Of a stretch of 64,000 nt of DNA, positions 194 to 35,347 are shown piece by piece (positions within the stretch are counted from its first letter, which is position 1; every line of letters starts with the position of its first letter). The notes below the pieces were generated by a model, which was given only the letters and a program-made list of their open reading frames with translations, ran no database searches and had not been told where the DNA came from. The position numbers and the translations under genes are program-made. The stretch spans positions 5,816,001 through 5,880,000 of the forward strand of contig NZ_CP034449.1 in assembly GCF_003952425.1 (NCBI RefSeq). Reading direction: 5' to 3'. The DNA is from Mesorhizobium sp. M2A.F.Ca.ET.046.03.2.1 (GTDB lineage: Bacteria > Pseudomonadota > Alphaproteobacteria > Rhizobiales > Rhizobiaceae).

Positions 194-1501
194 CAGCTTC
201 TCGTTGCCGGTCTCGGTGATCAGGATCTGTTCCTCGATCTTGACGCCTTCGTGCCCGCCAAGCCTGCCGATATAGCTTTCGACGCAAAGCACCATGCCGG
301 GCTCCAGCACGCCGTCCGGCGTGTCGTCGGTCCAATCGCCGGCATGCGGCAGCGTCGGATATTCATCCGCCAGGCCGACGCCGTGATAGAGCACGCCGTA
401 GCGCGTGGGGTAGCAATCGTCCGGCGGCACCGCCGAGCGCTCGGCGAGATCGCGGAAGGAGATGCCCGGCCGCATCAGATCCGTGTTATGGGCGATCTGA
501 TCGGCGGCGATGCGGAACAGATCCCGCTGCTCGTTCGAGGGTTGCCTGTCGCCGCAAAGCCATGTGCGCGAGAGATCGGCGCAGAAACCGTAGGGACCGA
601 TCAGGTCGGTGTCGAAGGCGACGAGGTCGCCATTCTCGATGACGCGCGAGGAGCATTCCTGGAACCAGGGATTGGTGCGCGGGCCGGACGACAGAAGCCG
701 CGTCTCGATCCACTCGCCGCCGCGCGCGATGTTGCCGCGATGCAGCTCCGCCCACAATTCGTTCTCGGAAATACCAGGCTTCAATGCCGCTTCCATCTCG
801 CCCATCGCCGCCTCGCAGGCGATGATCGAGCGCCGCATGGCGAGGATCTCGTCCGGCGATTTGATGAGGCGCGCATTCTCCATCACCGCCTCGCCATTGC
901 CGATCGCAATGCCGCGGCGGGCGAGCTCCTCGACGCCTTCGGGGTTGATGTGGTCGACGGCGATGCGTCGATTGCCGCCGCCATGCTCGGCAACGAGTTC
1001 GGCGATGCCGCCGCCCCAGCGGCGGACCTTCTCATCGGTCAACTCGCCGCTGTAGAGATACATCCACGATACCGCCGGCCGCACCTCGTCGACGACGCCC
1101 GAATGGTCGGACAGGTGCTCGCAGGAGAAATAGTCGAACAGCACCACCGGGCCTTCGGTGGCGACGAAACAGTGGCGCGTCGGGTTGTGCGCGACCCAGA
1201 GCTGCATGTTGGTCGAATCCGTCGCGTAGCGGATGTTGACCGGATCGTAGAGCAGGGCGCCGGCATAGTCGCGGCGCTTCAGCTCGGCGCGGATGCGCTC
1301 GAGCCGGTAGCTCCGCATGGCAACCAGGTTTGGAGCGGCAGCGCCTGCAGCCGCCCATTCGGCCTCGGCTGTCGCGCCATAGCCCAGCACATGCTGGTTG
1401 AGCGAGGCCGCCTTGTCGCGCGAGGCCGCGCGCAGCGCATCGACCGAGCCGGGCTCGAAGGGCATGATCTTGCGATGGCGGCCGAAGCCCAGCTTGTCCA
1501 T
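161..1501 (-). CDS. dddP: DddP-type M24 family protein (putative DMSP lyase / Xaa-Pro peptidase fold)
   Basis: 446 aa, the usual length of DddP. This family has a creatinase/aminopeptidase-P fold, and DddP cleaves dimethylsulfoniopropionate to DMS and acrylate in the cytoplasm. The visible metal-site residues are D297 and D299 (in VAFDTDL), D309, H373 (in YHGVG), E408 and E423, with D379 after the histidine. As I recall them, the RlDddP residues are D295, D297, D307, H371, E406 and E421 with catalytic D377, so every position matches with a constant offset of two. Family segments ATDSTNMQLW and GGEWIETRLL are also present. ATG at 1501 follows GAGGGA with good spacing. It is the last gene of a four-gene minus-strand run, 17 bases after the glycosyltransferase. 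The fold and family are clear; real DMSP activity in a soil bacterium is unproven, and a peptidase-like or other onium substrate remains possible. Confidence 0.8.
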   Translation of the reverse strand: MDKLGFGRHRKIMPFEPGSVDALRAASRDKAASLNQHVLGYGATAEAEWAAAGAAAPNLVAMRSYRLERIRAELKRRDYAGALLYDPVNIRYATDSTNMQLWVAHNPTRHCFVATEGPVVLFDYFSCEHLSDHSGVVDEVRPAVSWMYLYSGELTDEKVRRWGGGIAELVAEHGGGNRRIAVDHINPEGVEELARRGIAIGNGEAVMENARLIKSPDEILAMRRSIIACEAAMGEMEAALKPGISENELWAELHRGNIARGGEWIETRLLSSGPRTNPWFQECSSRVIENGDLVAFDTDLIGPYGFCADLSRTWLCGDRQPSNEQRDLFRIAADQIAHNTDLMRPGISFRDLAERSAVPPDDCYPTRYGVLYHGVGLADEYPTLPHAGDWTDDTPDGVLEPGMVLCVESYIGRLGGHEGVKIEEQILITETGNEKLSAYKLDERLL

Positions 1502-1518
1502 TCGTCCCTCTACACACC

Positions 1519-3045
1519 TTACGGCGCGATCTTCTTATGCAGTTTGGTGATCGTGACCTTGCGCGGCGGAAAGCCGAGCGCCTGCGGCACCTCGACAGTG
1601 CGGTGGACAGTGTCCATCGCATAGCCGGCTCTCGCCAACTCTTCGAAGACGTCCGAGGAGGATTCCCTGTCATCGGTCAGGACAAGCACCGCCGGCTCGC
1701 GGATCGACCGGGCGAAGTCCGGTGTCTCGTCATCGAGCGCGATGAGATCGGCGTCGACCAGGCGCAGATTGCCGACCCAGAACCAGCTCGACACCACGGT
1801 CTTGACCGGTCCGTCAGCGTTGATCTGCTCGTAAAGCGAACGGTAATCCATACGCACCACGCCTCCGCGGCTGTCGCCGCCGTGCAGATGCATGTACCAG
1901 CTCAGCGGCAGCACAAGGACGGCAAGAAGAGCACCCACGAAGACGATGGTGGCTTGCGTCTTGCGGCCCCTCTGGCCCATGGCGTCGAAGCGCATGGCAA
2001 GAGCCGCCGGCAGGAGGATAAAGATGGGCAGCATCCAGCGGTCGCGAAACTGAGTGATGCCGGCCGCCAGCACGACCGTCACCATGACCACAAGGCCAAG
2101 GACGATCGCTCGCCATAACAGTTTCTCCGGCCACCGCACCGGTTGAGGCGGTTCCGTCTGTTTTCTTGTCGCCAGGCCGTAGGCGACGGCAAAGATCGCC
2201 ACTGGCAATCCAGCGAAATTGACGATCGCATTGGCCAATCTGCGGATGCCGAGAAGTGCCGTTTTCGCGATGCTGCCGCCTTTGGCGACGCCTAGGCCTC
2301 CCTGGTGCGAGAGCAGATCGTCCAAATGGGTGAGGCTCCAATAAAGCGTCGGCAGGCAGGCAAGGATCGCTACCGCCACGCTGATCAGGAAGCGACGGTC
2401 GAAGATCGCCTCACGCGTTTCGCGGACCGACAGAGATGCCAGGAACAGGGCGGCAAGGAAGATGATGATGTTGTATTTCGACAGCATCGCGGCCGCCGTC
2501 GCCAGGCCCAAAAACGCATAGGCAACGGCCGATCGCCGCTTTTCCACCTCGACCAGCGCCAGAAGCAGCACCGAGGTGAAACAGAATATGGCGACCGAGT
2601 GGGCGAGGGCGTGCTGCATTTCCCAGAAGATCTGAGGAAACAGAAGCAGCCCGAACATGCCGGCGGCAGCGGCGCGGTTCGAGTAGCCGAGGCGGCGTAT
2701 GGCGGTGAAATAGGCGGTCAGCCCCGCCGCCAGCAAGCCATATTTGACGATCTTGAGGGCAAGGACGCTGGTTCCGACCACAGAGGCCGCAAGCATCGCC
2801 AGCCAGGTGTATAGAGGCGGCTGCGAGCTGCCGTAGCCGGCGGCCAAAAACCGCATCTCCATCAGCTGCTCGGAATCGTCGACGCCGACGCCGGTGCCCG
2901 CGACATGGGACAACAGCGTCATCGCCACGATCTGCGTCAGGCAGTAGACGAGGACCGACGCGATCGCGGCGCTGAATGGACCGACCTGTCCATCGCAGAG
3001 CCAATCGGTCCATTTCTCTAGCTGCCGCAAGGGGGGTCTTCTCAT
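1519..3045 (-). CDS. ArnT/PMT-like integral membrane glycosyltransferase (GT39/GT83 type)
   Basis: 508 aa with about a dozen hydrophobic segments and a soluble C-terminal tail of roughly 110 residues. The N-terminal half carries VDDSEQ in the first outer loop followed by SSQPPLYTWL, the pattern of polyprenyl-phosphate sugar-dependent glycosyltransferases such as ArnT and PMT, where an acidic pair in that loop is catalytic. It probably transfers a sugar from undecaprenyl-phosphate to an envelope acceptor; the acceptor cannot be told. The start was placed at MRRPPLRQ (3045); an in-frame ATG at 3081 would add 12 residues. It lies between a GcvT-type oxidoreductase (70 bases upstream) and dddP (17 bases downstream), an odd position for an envelope enzyme. 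Confidence 0.75.
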   Translation of the reverse strand: MRRPPLRQLEKWTDWLCDGQVGPFSAAIASVLVYCLTQIVAMTLLSHVAGTGVGVDDSEQLMEMRFLAAGYGSSQPPLYTWLAMLAASVVGTSVLALKIVKYGLLAAGLTAYFTAIRRLGYSNRAAAAGMFGLLLFPQIFWEMQHALAHSVAIFCFTSVLLLALVEVEKRRSAVAYAFLGLATAAAMLSKYNIIIFLAALFLASLSVRETREAIFDRRFLISVAVAILACLPTLYWSLTHLDDLLSHQGGLGVAKGGSIAKTALLGIRRLANAIVNFAGLPVAIFAVAYGLATRKQTEPPQPVRWPEKLLWRAIVLGLVVMVTVVLAAGITQFRDRWMLPIFILLPAALAMRFDAMGQRGRKTQATIVFVGALLAVLVLPLSWYMHLHGGDSRGGVVRMDYRSLYEQINADGPVKTVVSSWFWVGNLRLVDADLIALDDETPDFARSIREPAVLVLTDDRESSSDVFEELARAGYAMDTVHRTVEVPQALGFPPRKVTITKLHKKIAP

Positions 3046-3114
3046 GCTGATGCGCCGGTAGCGGGGCATCGACCATGCCACAGCAACCGGCGCGATCCAA
3101 CAATTCGTGGGGCT

Positions 3115-5685
3115 TCAGGTCCGCATCTTCTCGCCGCTCGGGTCGAAGGGCGGCTCGAGATTGATGCGGGCCGGGCGGCGGTGGCCGAGAATCTCGATCT
3201 CGAACAGGCCAGCGCTTTCGTCCTCGGCGAGAGCGGCAGGGACGTAGCCCTGCGCCATCGACTTCTGGACGGAATGTGCATAGCCGCCCGACGTCACCCA
3301 GCCGACGACGCGCCATTCGCCATCAACGATGCCGCGCACGGCGGAGGCGCCTTCGGCAGCCTTGGAGCCGCGGACTTCCTTGCCCGTTTCGTCGAAGCGC
3401 GGCGCGCCGTAGCCATGCGGCTTCTCGACCGTGCCATAGCCCTTGCTGACCTTGGCCCAGATCGGCTCGTCGCCCATCACGTCGGCGTCGACGGCATCGA
3501 CGATGAAGGAGACGCGCCGCAGTTTTGGTCCTTCGGCATGCTCCTTGGCCGACGCCTCGCGGCCGATGAAGTCGTTCTTCTCCAGCTTGATGAAGCGATC
3601 CATCGAGCCTTCGAAGGGACCGTAGATCGGGCGAAGCTCGCGGAACCAGGTCGGGAAGTTCTTTTCCAGACGCATCGACAGCAGCGCGCGCATTCCGAAA
3701 TCGACGAGGCCGAATTCCTCGCCCGCCTCCTTGATCGCCTTGTAGACAAGGCGCTGATAGGCCGGAGCCATCCAGATTTCGTAGCCTAGGTCGCCGGTAT
3801 AGGTGATGCGGTTGACCATGCAGGGCGCGCCGCCGACCGCCATCTCGCGGAAGTCCATGAAGCGGAATGCCTTGGTCGAGACGTCGACATCGACCAGCTT
3901 CTGCAGCAGGTCGCGGGATTTCGGGCCGGCGATGGAGAGACCCACCAGCGTCTGGTCGAAGCGGTGGATGCGCACCGACCCATCCTTCGGCAGGTGCTTC
4001 TCGAACCAGCGCATATGGTATTTCTGCGCGGCCGACGAGCCCCAGATCATGAAACGATCCTCGCCTGATTTGGCGATGGTGAAGTCGCCGATCAGCTTGC
4101 CGAACTCGTTAACCATCGGGGTCAGCACGATGCGGCCGACCTTCGGCATGCGGTTCGTCATCAGGCGATTGAGGAAATCCTCCGCGCCCGGGCCGGACAC
4201 TTCGTATTTGGCGAAGTTGGCGATCTCGGTGACGCCGACCTTCTCGCGCGTGGCGCGCACTTCCTCGCCGATCGGGCCGAAATCGTTGGAGCGGTGGAAG
4301 GACACGATGTCCTTCGGCTCGGTGCCCTTGGGCGCGAACCAGAGCGGGGTTTCCAGACCCCAGCTATCGCCCATGACCGCATTGTTGGCGAGCATGGTGT
4401 CGTAGAGCGGCGTCGTCTGCGCGGGGCGGGCGGCCGGCAGTTCCTCGTTCGGGAAGCGGATCGAGAAGCGGCGCGAATAGTTCTCGCGCACCTTGGCGTT
4501 GGTGTAGCGCAGCGTCGCCCATTCGCCGAAGCGGGCGACGTCCATGCCCCAGACGTCGAAGCCCGGATCGCCATGCACCATCCAGTTGGAGAGCGCCAGG
4601 CCGACGCCGCCGCCCTGGCTGAAGCCGGCCATGACGGCGCAGGCGCACCAGAAATTGGTCAGGCCCTGCACCGGGCCGACCAGCGGGTTGCCGTCGAGCG
4701 CGAAGGTGAAGGGTCCGTTGATGATCTGCTTGATGCCGGCCTTCTCGATACCGGGGAAATGCTTGAAGCCGATCTCCAGCGACGGCGCGATGCGGTCGAT
4801 GTCGGGCTGCAGAAGCTCGTGGCCGAAATCCCACGGTGTGTTGACCGGCGACCACGGCTTGCAGGCCTTTTCATAGGTGCCGAGCAGGATGCCATTGCGC
4901 TCCTGGCGGGTGTAGATCTCGCCCTTGAAGTCGAGCACGCCGATCATCTCGCGGCCGGTCGACTTGTTGAACTCCTCGACCTCCGGCATCGGCTCGGTGA
5001 GCAGGTACATATGCTCCATCGCCAGCACCGGCAGCTCGACGCCGACCATGCGGCCGATCTCGCGCGCCCACAGGCCGCCGCAGTTGACGACATGCTCGGC
5101 GTGGACCGTGCCTTGCTCGGTGACGACGTTCCAGGTGCCGTCCGGCTGCTGCGTCAGATCGACGACGCGGTTGCGCAGCACGATCTCCGCGCCGAGTTTC
5201 TTGGCCGCCTTGGAATAGGCGATGGTGGTGCCGGACGGATCGAGATGACCTTCGACCGGATCCCACATGGCGCCGACGAAGTTCTTCTCGTCCATCAGCG
5301 GGAACATGGCCCTGGCTTCCGAGGGCGTGATCAGCTCGGTGTCCATACCGAGATAACGGCCCTTGGCGTGAGCCAACCGCAGGAAGTCCATGCGCTCCGG
5401 CGTATCGGCCATCATGACGCCGCCGGTCAGATGCAGCGAGCAGGACTGGCCGGAAAGCTCCTCGATCTCGTTGTAGAGCTGGACCGTATAGGCCTGCAGC
5501 TTGGCGACGTTGGGGTCGCCGTTCAGCGTGTGGAAGCCGCCCGCCGCATGCCAGGACGAGCCGGAAGTCAGCTCCGAGCGCTCAATCAGCATGATGTCGG
5601 TCCAGCCGGCCTTGGCGAGGTGATAAAGCACCGAGCAGCCGACGACGCCGCCGCCGATGACAACCGCTTTTACATGGGATTTCAT
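3115..5685 (-). CDS. FAD-dependent oxidoreductase fused to GcvT domains (dimethylglycine/sarcosine dehydrogenase-like)
   Basis: 856 aa. The N-terminal D-amino-acid-oxidase-type FAD domain spans about residues 5-370 (GGGVVG at 11-16, E35 at the end of strand two). The GcvT/aminomethyltransferase domain covers about 430-720 and a GcvT C-terminal barrel follows. The segment SGSSWHAAGG (41-50) places H46 where dimethylglycine dehydrogenases attach FAD covalently. Such enzymes oxidatively remove an N-methyl group and pass the one-carbon unit to tetrahydrofolate through the GcvT part. Downstream of an MttB-family gene and upstream of dddP, it fits use of a methylated amine or betaine; the exact substrate is unknown. 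Gap to the upstream gene is about 100 bases. Confidence 0.85.
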   Translation of the reverse strand: MKSHVKAVVIGGGVVGCSVLYHLAKAGWTDIMLIERSELTSGSSWHAAGGFHTLNGDPNVAKLQAYTVQLYNEIEELSGQSCSLHLTGGVMMADTPERMDFLRLAHAKGRYLGMDTELITPSEARAMFPLMDEKNFVGAMWDPVEGHLDPSGTTIAYSKAAKKLGAEIVLRNRVVDLTQQPDGTWNVVTEQGTVHAEHVVNCGGLWAREIGRMVGVELPVLAMEHMYLLTEPMPEVEEFNKSTGREMIGVLDFKGEIYTRQERNGILLGTYEKACKPWSPVNTPWDFGHELLQPDIDRIAPSLEIGFKHFPGIEKAGIKQIINGPFTFALDGNPLVGPVQGLTNFWCACAVMAGFSQGGGVGLALSNWMVHGDPGFDVWGMDVARFGEWATLRYTNAKVRENYSRRFSIRFPNEELPAARPAQTTPLYDTMLANNAVMGDSWGLETPLWFAPKGTEPKDIVSFHRSNDFGPIGEEVRATREKVGVTEIANFAKYEVSGPGAEDFLNRLMTNRMPKVGRIVLTPMVNEFGKLIGDFTIAKSGEDRFMIWGSSAAQKYHMRWFEKHLPKDGSVRIHRFDQTLVGLSIAGPKSRDLLQKLVDVDVSTKAFRFMDFREMAVGGAPCMVNRITYTGDLGYEIWMAPAYQRLVYKAIKEAGEEFGLVDFGMRALLSMRLEKNFPTWFRELRPIYGPFEGSMDRFIKLEKNDFIGREASAKEHAEGPKLRRVSFIVDAVDADVMGDEPIWAKVSKGYGTVEKPHGYGAPRFDETGKEVRGSKAAEGASAVRGIVDGEWRVVGWVTSGGYAHSVQKSMAQGYVPAALAEDESAGLFEIEILGHRRPARINLEPPFDPSGEKMRT

Positions 5686-34836: not shown

Positions 34837-35200
34837 TGTCTTACTCCTGTCGGGCATGGCCCCATCCGAGGCGTCACGTCATGCGTCGATCATCCTTTTC
34901 GTTTTTCGTTTCACGTCGTCGTACTTCATGTTCCTGGGCACGAATGATCCGGAGACCGGTGGCATCCGCGCGAAGCGGGCCTTCGGGAGCGGATCGCGGG
35001 GCGGCGAAGCGGGCGCCGGAAGCCCGAGCTTCCCTTGCCGGCCGCGCCGCGCCTTGACCGTCATCGCGGGCCTGGCCGCGCGCCGATGGCGCAGGACGTC
35101 GCCGCCCGGCGAGGCCGAAACCTTGCCGTCCGTGAAGTCCTCGCATTCCGGTCCCCGGACCGTTTTGGATAACACCACCTGAAGGTGTCGGCTTATCAGG
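34837..35200. other. Region between tRNA-like pair and slipin
   Basis: 364 bases. Directly after the tRNA-like pair there is a hairpin (35168-35197; GATAA..TTATC at its base) and then a perfect CGGTCC/GGACCG stem on the minus strand. A minus-strand frame from GTG 35178 to 34879 (99 codons, basic, ending in a lysine-rich tail) is open, but it has no ribosome-binding site and starts within the hairpin, so I do not call it a gene. The region is probably a long leader of slipin. Confidence 0.5.
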
Positions 35201-35275
35201 CCGTTGGAGAAGGAATCGAACCTTCGACAGTCAGATTAACAATCTGATGCTCTAACCAAACTGAGCTATCCGTGG
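35201..35275 (-). tRNA. tRNA-Asn(GTT)-like gene with degenerate acceptor stem, possibly pseudo
   Basis: On the minus strand the D-arm (GCTC/GAGC), a perfect anticodon arm (TCAGA-TTGTTAA-TCTGA, anticodon GTT) and a perfect T-arm (GAAGG-TTCGATT-CCTTC) are present. The acceptor stem pairs only at the inner three positions plus the outermost one, there is no encoded CCA, and its 5' strand overlaps the CCA end of the preceding tRNA-like gene. A normal charged tRNA-Asn is therefore doubtful. Confidence 0.65.
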
Positions 35276-35347
35276 TGCTGATGAAGGGACTCGAACCCTC
35301 GACCTCCGGACCCAAATCCGGCGCTCTAACCTCTGAGCTACATCGGC
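35273..35347 (-). tRNA. tRNA-like gene with encoded CCA and an anticodon loop of abnormal size
   Basis: 75 nt on the minus strand: acceptor GCCGATG/CATCAGC (six of seven pairs), D-arm GCTC/GAGC, T-arm GAGGG-TTCGAGT-CCCTT and genomic CCA. The anticodon arm reads CCGG-ATTTGGGT-CCGG: a four-pair stem with an 8-base loop, or five pairs with a 6-base loop, but not the standard 7. The anticodon therefore cannot be assigned; TGG (Pro) is the nearest reading. It could be a frameshift-suppressor-type or non-translating tRNA. Confidence 0.65.

Follow-up and report, generated by a model that had tools for sequence, protein, structure and literature searches.

The window analyzed here, a 64,000-nucleotide stretch of the genome of Mesorhizobium sp. 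M2A.F.Ca.ET.046.03.2.1, carries on its minus strand two tandem tRNA-like units that lie upstream of a gene for a slipin of the SPFH/Band-7 family. The question raised by this locus is what two such units are for, since neither looks like a tRNA that could serve translation in the usual way. The original prediction, made from the nucleotides alone, regarded them as true tRNA relatives that resemble sensors, decoys or frameshift-type tRNAs more than working tRNAs, and we followed up these claims by comparing the locus with its relatives in the genus Mesorhizobium and beyond.

Two tRNA-like units upstream of a slipin gene

On the minus strand, the elements of the locus follow each other in the order promoter-like sequence, structured 5' domain, unit 1, unit 2, short hairpin, a leader of about 300 nt, minigene, and slipin (Table 1). 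The Rfam tRNA model fits unit 1 with 63.0 bits and unit 2 with 54.8 bits, compared with a gathering score of 29; therefore, the two are not chance matches, and they rank 30th and 44th among the 49 tRNA matches of the genome. Both have good D and T arms, as expected of real tRNA relatives. Unit 1 has a 5-bp anticodon stem, A73, an acceptor paired at six of seven positions (the exception being a C3·A70 mismatch), the encoded CCA (35275-35273) that had been predicted, and an anticodon loop of six bases (TTTGGG, 35316-35311, minus strand), where six or eight had been predicted. Unit 2 likewise shows the predicted perfect anticodon arm (TCAGA-TTGTTAA-TCTGA, 35247-35231, minus strand) with the anticodon GTT, and no CCA. 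It had further been claimed that its acceptor pairs at only four of seven positions and has to share bases with unit 1. Both claims stand if unit 2 is forced into seven pairs, but real sharing is not needed, because an acceptor of three pairs (GGA/TCC) is kept among relatives with compensatory changes. ARAGORN reported unit 1 alone, as tRNA-??? with a two-base anticodon, and with this one tRNA gene listed, it gave no tmRNA in the window. Over the locus, tRNA was the sole Rfam family above gathering, and annotation pipelines will therefore probably show no more than one odd tRNA at this place. Elsewhere in the same genome (C1:1548951-1549021), a second tRNA-Cys(GCA)-like gene with a low score of 38.1 bits adjoins a tRNA-Thr(GGT) gene.

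Table 1. Features of the locus and of two Roseibium relatives (positions in the window, or in the Roseibium locus named)
Feature	Position	Strand	Evidence or remark
Promoter-like TTGCGA-N17-TATAGG	35487-35459	-	Found in 64 of the 67 genus loci
Inverted repeat TGCGAC-AACCC-GTCGCA (perfect), within the promoter-like sequence	35486-35470	-	Exact in 62 of 67 genus loci
Structured 5' RNA domain	35438-35359	-	Outer stem 35438-35431 with 35366-35359; two hairpins inside
tRNA-like unit 1	35347-35273	-	Rfam tRNA, 63.0 bits; covariation; 3:70, A73, and CCA counts
tRNA-like unit 2	35271-35206	-	Rfam tRNA, 54.8 bits; covariation; loop variation
Short hairpin CGGC-CTGATAA-GCCG	35203-35189	-	Directly 3' of unit 2; by eye from alignments
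Minigene, AAAAGGA then ATG-ACG-TGA	34899-34874 (ATG-ACG-TGA 34882-34874)	-	Upstream of the slipin start
Slipin (SPFH/Band-7)	34836-33694 (ATG 34836-34834)	-	Band_7, 107.6 bits; structure models; hydropathy
KptA/Tpt1 RNA 2'-phosphotransferase, Roseibium	L098 5386-5934; L103 5338-5895		Downstream of slipin; Pfam

The promoter-like sequence that had been predicted 105-140 bases upstream is present and conserved among the 67 distinct genus loci (L033 and L202 share one 300-nt sequence and were counted once), and a generic sigma-70 scan listed no promoter in the stretch that holds it. The inverted repeat between its hexamers is perhaps an operator or another regulator site. A sigma-54 promoter was considered as a general rule and rejected, as boxes 520-565 nt upstream of slipin occur in only 5 of 14 loci from other classes; a sixth pattern match (L161) is located elsewhere. 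For the 5' domain, 17 sequences including the window were aligned, and 18 of the 23 pairs predicted show compensatory change in at least one of them; no Rfam family scored above gathering over 35438-35359. The short hairpin after unit 2 occurs in relatives in CGGC/GCCG and TGGC/GCCA forms, as judged by eye. Another hairpin 3' of unit 2, at 35149-35162 (CGGTCCGGGGACCG on the minus strand), is retained in most aligned sequences and has a T-rich tail on the plus strand only. No terminator-like site was found on the minus strand between 35600 and 34830.

The slipin itself carries extra SPFH-type beta units at its N-terminus, as indicated by structure models with their matches and by internal repeats, and hydropathy gave no clear membrane helix. 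Pfam and PDB sequence searches with the N-terminus returned no match, and the N-terminus alone had no Foldseek match at E ≤ 0.001, its best structural matches being single SPFH beta units. The models are no more than suggestive of a vault-like fold, in which tandem beta repeats precede an SPFH-like shoulder; the vault protein MVP is related to stomatin. Among the matches listed, the closest named relatives are 96% identical (Mesorhizobium plurifarium and Mesorhizobium sp. CU3). The gene directly precedes an acyl-carrier protein-like gene (Pfam) and two ketoacyl synthase-like genes (identified by eye).

Inheritance with slipin and the link to RNA repair

To follow the pair across genomes, a 171-bp query taken around it was searched in 37 genomes of the genus and 24 others of the same order. 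The raw tally of 59 of 61 genomes is inflated because ordinary tRNAs, for example tRNA-His, match part of the query; only matches spanning most of its length were counted, and these came from 21 genomes of the genus and from G045, which belongs to another family. Slipin is present in 70 of 119 genus genomes. Among the 37 searched for both, 20 have slipin and the pair, 16 have neither, and in one (G019) the pair stands at the end of a contig. Of the 70 slipin genomes of the genus, 69 carry the pair directly before slipin, which is to say all 69 that are testable; in the 70th (G981), the contig ends 334 nt before slipin. The automated pattern missed the pair in L201, L214, and L242, of which the last two have it and the first is a contig end. 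In 5 of the 70 genomes (G945, G947, G977, G999, and G1008), a stop interrupts slipin or its match falls into two parts, and the pair is still present. Most of these counts are over related genomes and are not phylogenetically independent, the one exception being the 17 non-overlapping locus pairs described below.

Beyond the genus, the distribution of slipin is patchy (5 of 151 family genomes and 6 of 385 class genomes at E ≤ 1e-40, our genome included in both). Where slipin occurs, at least one Rfam tRNA unit was found upstream in 10 of 11 loci and two in 8 of 11, our own locus included, and such matches extend to slipins of 39% identity. Among named slipin loci, of which the best 80 of 336 were taken, 59 have two T-arms spaced as in a tRNA. 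The other 21 comprise one truncated locus (L148), three Mesorhizobium loci with a three-pair T stem in unit 1 (L073, L090, and L118), loci with a single unit or with a second unit that has degenerated, and L117, where no unit is convincing. No protein-coding neighbor was generally conserved, the largest families covering 21 of these best 80 loci, mostly from Mesorhizobium. A Pth-like family (named by eye from one locus), found 2.0-4.4 kb downstream in eight loci, looks like ordinary synteny. Across the proteobacteria, slipin goes with one defined RNA in an almost one-to-one relation.

The neighborhood of slipin in other lineages points to RNA repair. A match to the RNA ligase RtcB was found in 20 of 34 slipin genomes tested. 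In the other proteobacterial classes, RtcB lies within 4 kb of slipin in 14 of 14 slipin genomes, on the same strand and less than 1 kb away in 13 of them (G690 has two copies, at 2.2 and 3.8 kb), and the same 14 genomes have two or three T-arms upstream of slipin in 13 cases and one in the remaining case (L165). Within the class of our genome, 6 of 20 slipin genomes have an RtcB match, each on a different contig than slipin, the contigs of G045 being too short to judge. In five Roseibium loci, a KptA/Tpt1-like family sits just downstream of slipin, as Pfam confirmed for the two tested (Table 1). Our own genome gave no match to RtcB; therefore, RtcB repair cannot be the function of the module here.

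Three further loci have features of their own. In L146, from Competibacter, a CCA-adding-type nucleotidyltransferase (1890-3131; PolyA_pol head, RNA-binding, and HD domains) lies upstream of the tRNA-like RNA; in L144, from Thiodiazotropha, a reverse transcriptase (RVT_1; 1142-2464, minus strand) lies upstream of the slipin module, perhaps in a defense neighborhood; and L167 has three T-arms in a row upstream of slipin, 71 nt apart. Published systems contain similar associations: the SPFH protein PaFlo8 of Pseudomonas aeruginosa is encoded within the rtc locus (PMC13086221), and loss of the repressor TrcR in Anabaena raises both rtcB and a slipin gene (PMC10272220).

Constant stems, changing loops, and what the RNA may do

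The double cloverleaf is supported by covariation in 31 aligned alphaproteobacterial sequences, window included (set A3). Of all cells, 96.6% are paired, compared with 82.3% in shuffles, and changes occur on both sides in 28 of 38 pairs, compared with 14.4 in shuffles; none of 500 shuffles reached the observed value on any of five measures, and sliding the partners by one to three columns lowered pairing to 40-53%. This support extends to a full-length acceptor for unit 1 and to three acceptor pairs for unit 2.

Within the genus, most stems hardly change. The anticodon stem of unit 2 (TCAGA/TCTGA) is the same in all 67 loci and that of unit 1 (CCGGA/TCCGG) in 65, with changes in L192 and L235, although the pattern for unit 1 requires CCGG, most of this stem, so that the 65-of-65 identity is partly built in. 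Column entropy is 0-0.11 bits in the D and anticodon stems of both units and in the T stem of unit 2; for unit 2, the D, T, and anticodon stems show no variation (entropy 0), and the anticodon loop reaches 0.91 bits. The variable parts are the anticodon loops and D-loops, together with the T stem and acceptor of unit 1. The anticodon loops take 21 forms of 5-6 nt in the 65 parsed loci for unit 1 and 20 forms of 6-7 nt in the 67 loci for unit 2; a loop of 7 nt occurs in unit 1 of L112, a Mesorhizobium locus outside the 67, and across genera, the loop of unit 1 ranges from 4 to 7 nt. This variation is not free, because 55 of the 67 unit 2 loops end in UAA.

The loops also differ between close relatives. 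At 95-98% identity over the flanking 300 nt, 36 of 41 locus pairs have a loop difference (none of three at 98-100%), as do 15 of the 17 non-overlapping pairs. Per site, the unit 2 loop changes at 0.24 and the 4-fold positions of slipin at 0.11 (n = 15, p = 0.04), which gives weak support to the idea that loops change faster than synonymous sites and which recombination may confound. In the pair with the closest slipins (4-fold difference 0.005), both loops differ, and so does about 10% of the 5' domain; therefore, leader and slipin may recombine, which weakens the rate test.

What comparison among genomes shows is, then, a structure, its conservation, its one-to-one inheritance with slipin, a repair-gene neighborhood in other classes and in Roseibium, and stable anticodon stems with fast loops. 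Because the stems are constant and the loops change between species, the units look like baits or sensors of tRNA damage, not like translation tRNAs. We propose that both units are parts of a single structured non-coding RNA with the order promoter, 5' domain, mimic 1, mimic 2, and hairpin. It seems to be transcribed from a promoter of its own and, as no terminator was found, would continue as the 5' leader of slipin. This RNA would be the partner of slipin in a response to tRNA damage: its anticodon arms could offer a changing target to RNases that recognize tRNA anticodon loops, it could serve as a bait or decoy with an SPFH protein as its scaffold, and its cleavage, or a stall at the minigene, could signal that damage has occurred, all of which would work without RtcB in this genome. 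The predicted role of sensor or decoy fits and stays a suggestion. Taken as a whole (a structured RNA, partner of slipin, and bait or sensor of tRNA damage), this is the best explanation we can offer, with the chances that it is right about evenly poised. In the bait mechanism alone we have somewhat less faith, a little short of even. Several points speak against the explanation: (i) the unit 2 loops do not plainly reproduce those of real tRNAs and do not vary freely, (ii) loop change faster than at synonymous sites has weak support, (iii) this genome has no RtcB, (iv) the Y RNA YrlA itself was not cut by the Salmonella nuclease (PMC7790460), and (v) the pair persists in the five genus genomes in which slipin is broken. 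As for the first, copying of the anticodon loops of our own genome was tested and rejected, with exact matches for 5 of 19 unit 2 loops and null means of 2.1-3.0 (p = 0.05-0.18, not significant). A bait or decoy on an SPFH scaffold remains our first choice, with a leader sensor second, and the readings are not all exclusive.

The second choice is that the mimics and the minigene act in cis to control slipin expression, the RNA having no function of its own, for example through competition for a tRNA-binding factor or because cleavage of a tRNA makes ribosomes stall at the minigene. The minigene consists of a Shine-Dalgarno site, a start, one to four codons as a rule, and a stop. With a strict pattern, 61 of the 67 genus loci have it, and of the six without a match, L048 lacks sequence in that region. 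Under a first rule of exactly one sense codon, it was found in all 24 Mesorhizobium loci and in 27 of 50 from other alphaproteobacteria; under a rule of zero to four sense codons, set after the sequences were inspected and given its own shuffle control, it was found in 46 of these 50, compared with a shuffle mean of 2.7 and a maximum of 7. Its start, codons, and stop are retained while the bases vary. Mesorhizobium has ATG-ACG/ACT/AGT/ATT-TGA, Shinella and two of three Rhizobium loci have ATG-ACG-TAG, most Roseibium have GTG-CCT-TAG, and 13 Rhodobacteraceae-type loci have TTG-CGA-CGA-CGA-stop; the stops TAG, TAA, and TGA interchange, and one form adds a CGA codon in frame. At the extremes, four CGA codons occur in a single locus, and in another the stop follows the start at once. 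It may be a compact regulatory element, in which the codon could be exchanged in one step. Control in cis would be consistent with the kept frame and with a minus strand that has no terminator-like site between the RNA and slipin. However, the same rule finds no minigene in any of 6 gammaproteobacterial loci or of 14 more from other classes (20 in all), although tRNA-like units precede slipin there too, and a pure regulator would leave two mimics with changing loops unexplained. We consider control in cis rather unlikely as the whole account.

A further reading concerns unit 1, which may be a tRNA-like RNA charged with alanine, used in the manner of a tmRNA domain or as a reserve or sensor of Ala-tRNA. 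The base pair G3·U70 is the identity element of alanyl-tRNA synthetase (AlaRS), mutant work reportedly shows that C·A, G·A, and U·U can take its place, and the enzyme does not read the anticodon; the unit 1 loop would be free to vary for this reason. Among the 56 parsed genus loci (11 of the 67 being unparsed and left out), position 3:70 is G·U in 36, C·A in 11, G·A in 2, and G-C in 7, making it non-Watson-Crick in 49, and A73 is present in 54 and CCA in 51. Unit 1 of our own locus combines an irregular pair (C3·A70) with A73 and CCA, and among the 46 distinct tRNA sequences that ARAGORN read in the loci retrieved from our genome, only two, both tRNA-Ala, have an irregular 3:70. On the other hand, our locus has C·A and not G·U, and the signature is weaker in other genera, where only 13 of 27 parsed loci have G·U and 13 of 27 have U at position 73 (11 of 38 loci being unparsed). 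We find alanine charging unlikely, and it would be compatible with the other readings.

Alternatively, the RNA could be architectural in the manner of a Y RNA, with slipin binding its stems, elbows, and 5' domain and with loops that vary because nothing reads them. The nearly invariant stems (0-0.11 bits per column) and variable loops and D-loops would follow from this, and the YrlA model (RF02553) aligns weakly, over its full length, with the two units together, at 22.2 bits (gathering 69) and E = 0.037. An architectural role is distinctly improbable, however, as the T stem and acceptor of unit 1 vary, the UAA endings show that the unit 2 loops are not random, and these loops change faster, at 0.24 per site, than the slipin 4-fold sites noted above, at 0.11 (n = 15, p = 0.04).

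Ordinary, frameshift-type, or relic tRNA genes, which the good tRNA model scores might suggest, can practically be discounted given the short and changing loops, the 3-bp acceptor of unit 2, the covariation, and the co-inheritance with one gene. The original prediction was right that these are not ordinary translation tRNAs and had itself named two outcomes that would count against it, ordinary isoacceptors under standard models and random relics absent from relatives. Neither came about: the Rfam model fits both units, neither of which is an ordinary isoacceptor, and the pair is conserved and covarying. Slipin, the connection to RNA repair, the 5' domain, and the minigene formed no part of that prediction. 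Its frameshift-type label has to be dropped, since +1 frameshift suppressor tRNAs have an enlarged anticodon loop and unit 1 has loops of 5-6 nt in the 65 parsed genus loci, with a sequence that is not kept; an extra isoacceptor falls with it.

Returning to the RNA as bait and partner of slipin, a fuller version would be a ligase-free tRNA-damage system: a soluble SPFH cage and an RNA with two mimics, the first chargeable with alanine, whose loops diversify under anticodon nucleases, and a one-codon minigene that reports tRNA loss and raises slipin synthesis. This version is doubtful. If true, it would mean that bacteria have an SPFH ribonucleoprotein with the layout of a vault and a bait RNA that changes rapidly. 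Mimics whose loops change while their anticodon stems stay constant would directly attest an arms race in which tRNA cleavage is at stake, and every species would provide a natural loop variant open to testing.

Comparison with known systems

A 2016 abstract in NAR by Burroughs and Aravind reportedly names a Band-7-linked tRNA-like RNA of RNA-repair systems. Our literature search returned no paper joining a slipin or Band-7 protein to a tRNA-like RNA; since the 2016 source lies outside that search, we do not claim the association as unpublished. The likeness consists of a tRNA-like RNA adjoining an SPFH/Band-7 gene, with RtcB beside it in other classes, whereas the locus described here has two tandem units, a 5' domain, a minigene, and no RtcB in its genome. 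It is very probably an RtcB-less variant of these RNAs, and we file it as a variant and not as a plain member because the RNA ligase is absent here.

The other relatives are more distant. The Y RNA YrlA has a tRNA-like domain, belongs to rsr-yrlBA-rtcBA operons in an RNA-repair setting, and was not cut by a Salmonella nuclease (PMC7790460). Our RNA resembles it in being operon-linked, in its tRNA-like domain, and in the RNA-repair setting, but has an SPFH partner and two complete cloverleaves, and membership in the YrlA family was rejected at 22.2 bits, below the gathering score of 69. From translation tRNAs (RF00005), which both units resemble in scoring above gathering, the RNA differs in the loop of unit 1 (4-7 nt across genera), in the 3-bp acceptor of unit 2 without CCA, and in an anticodon that is not conserved.

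A tRNA mimic without a usable anticodon also exists in tmRNA, in the form of its tRNA-like domain. Our RNA likewise has no usable anticodon and, in most parsed genus loci, an irregular 3:70, A73, and CCA, whereas its anticodon arms are present and it has two units. Finally, minigenes of the lambda bar type, which consist of a Shine-Dalgarno site, a start, one or a few codons, and a stop, cause peptidyl-tRNA drop-off; the minigene before slipin has the same plan and is conserved upstream of one gene in many genera.
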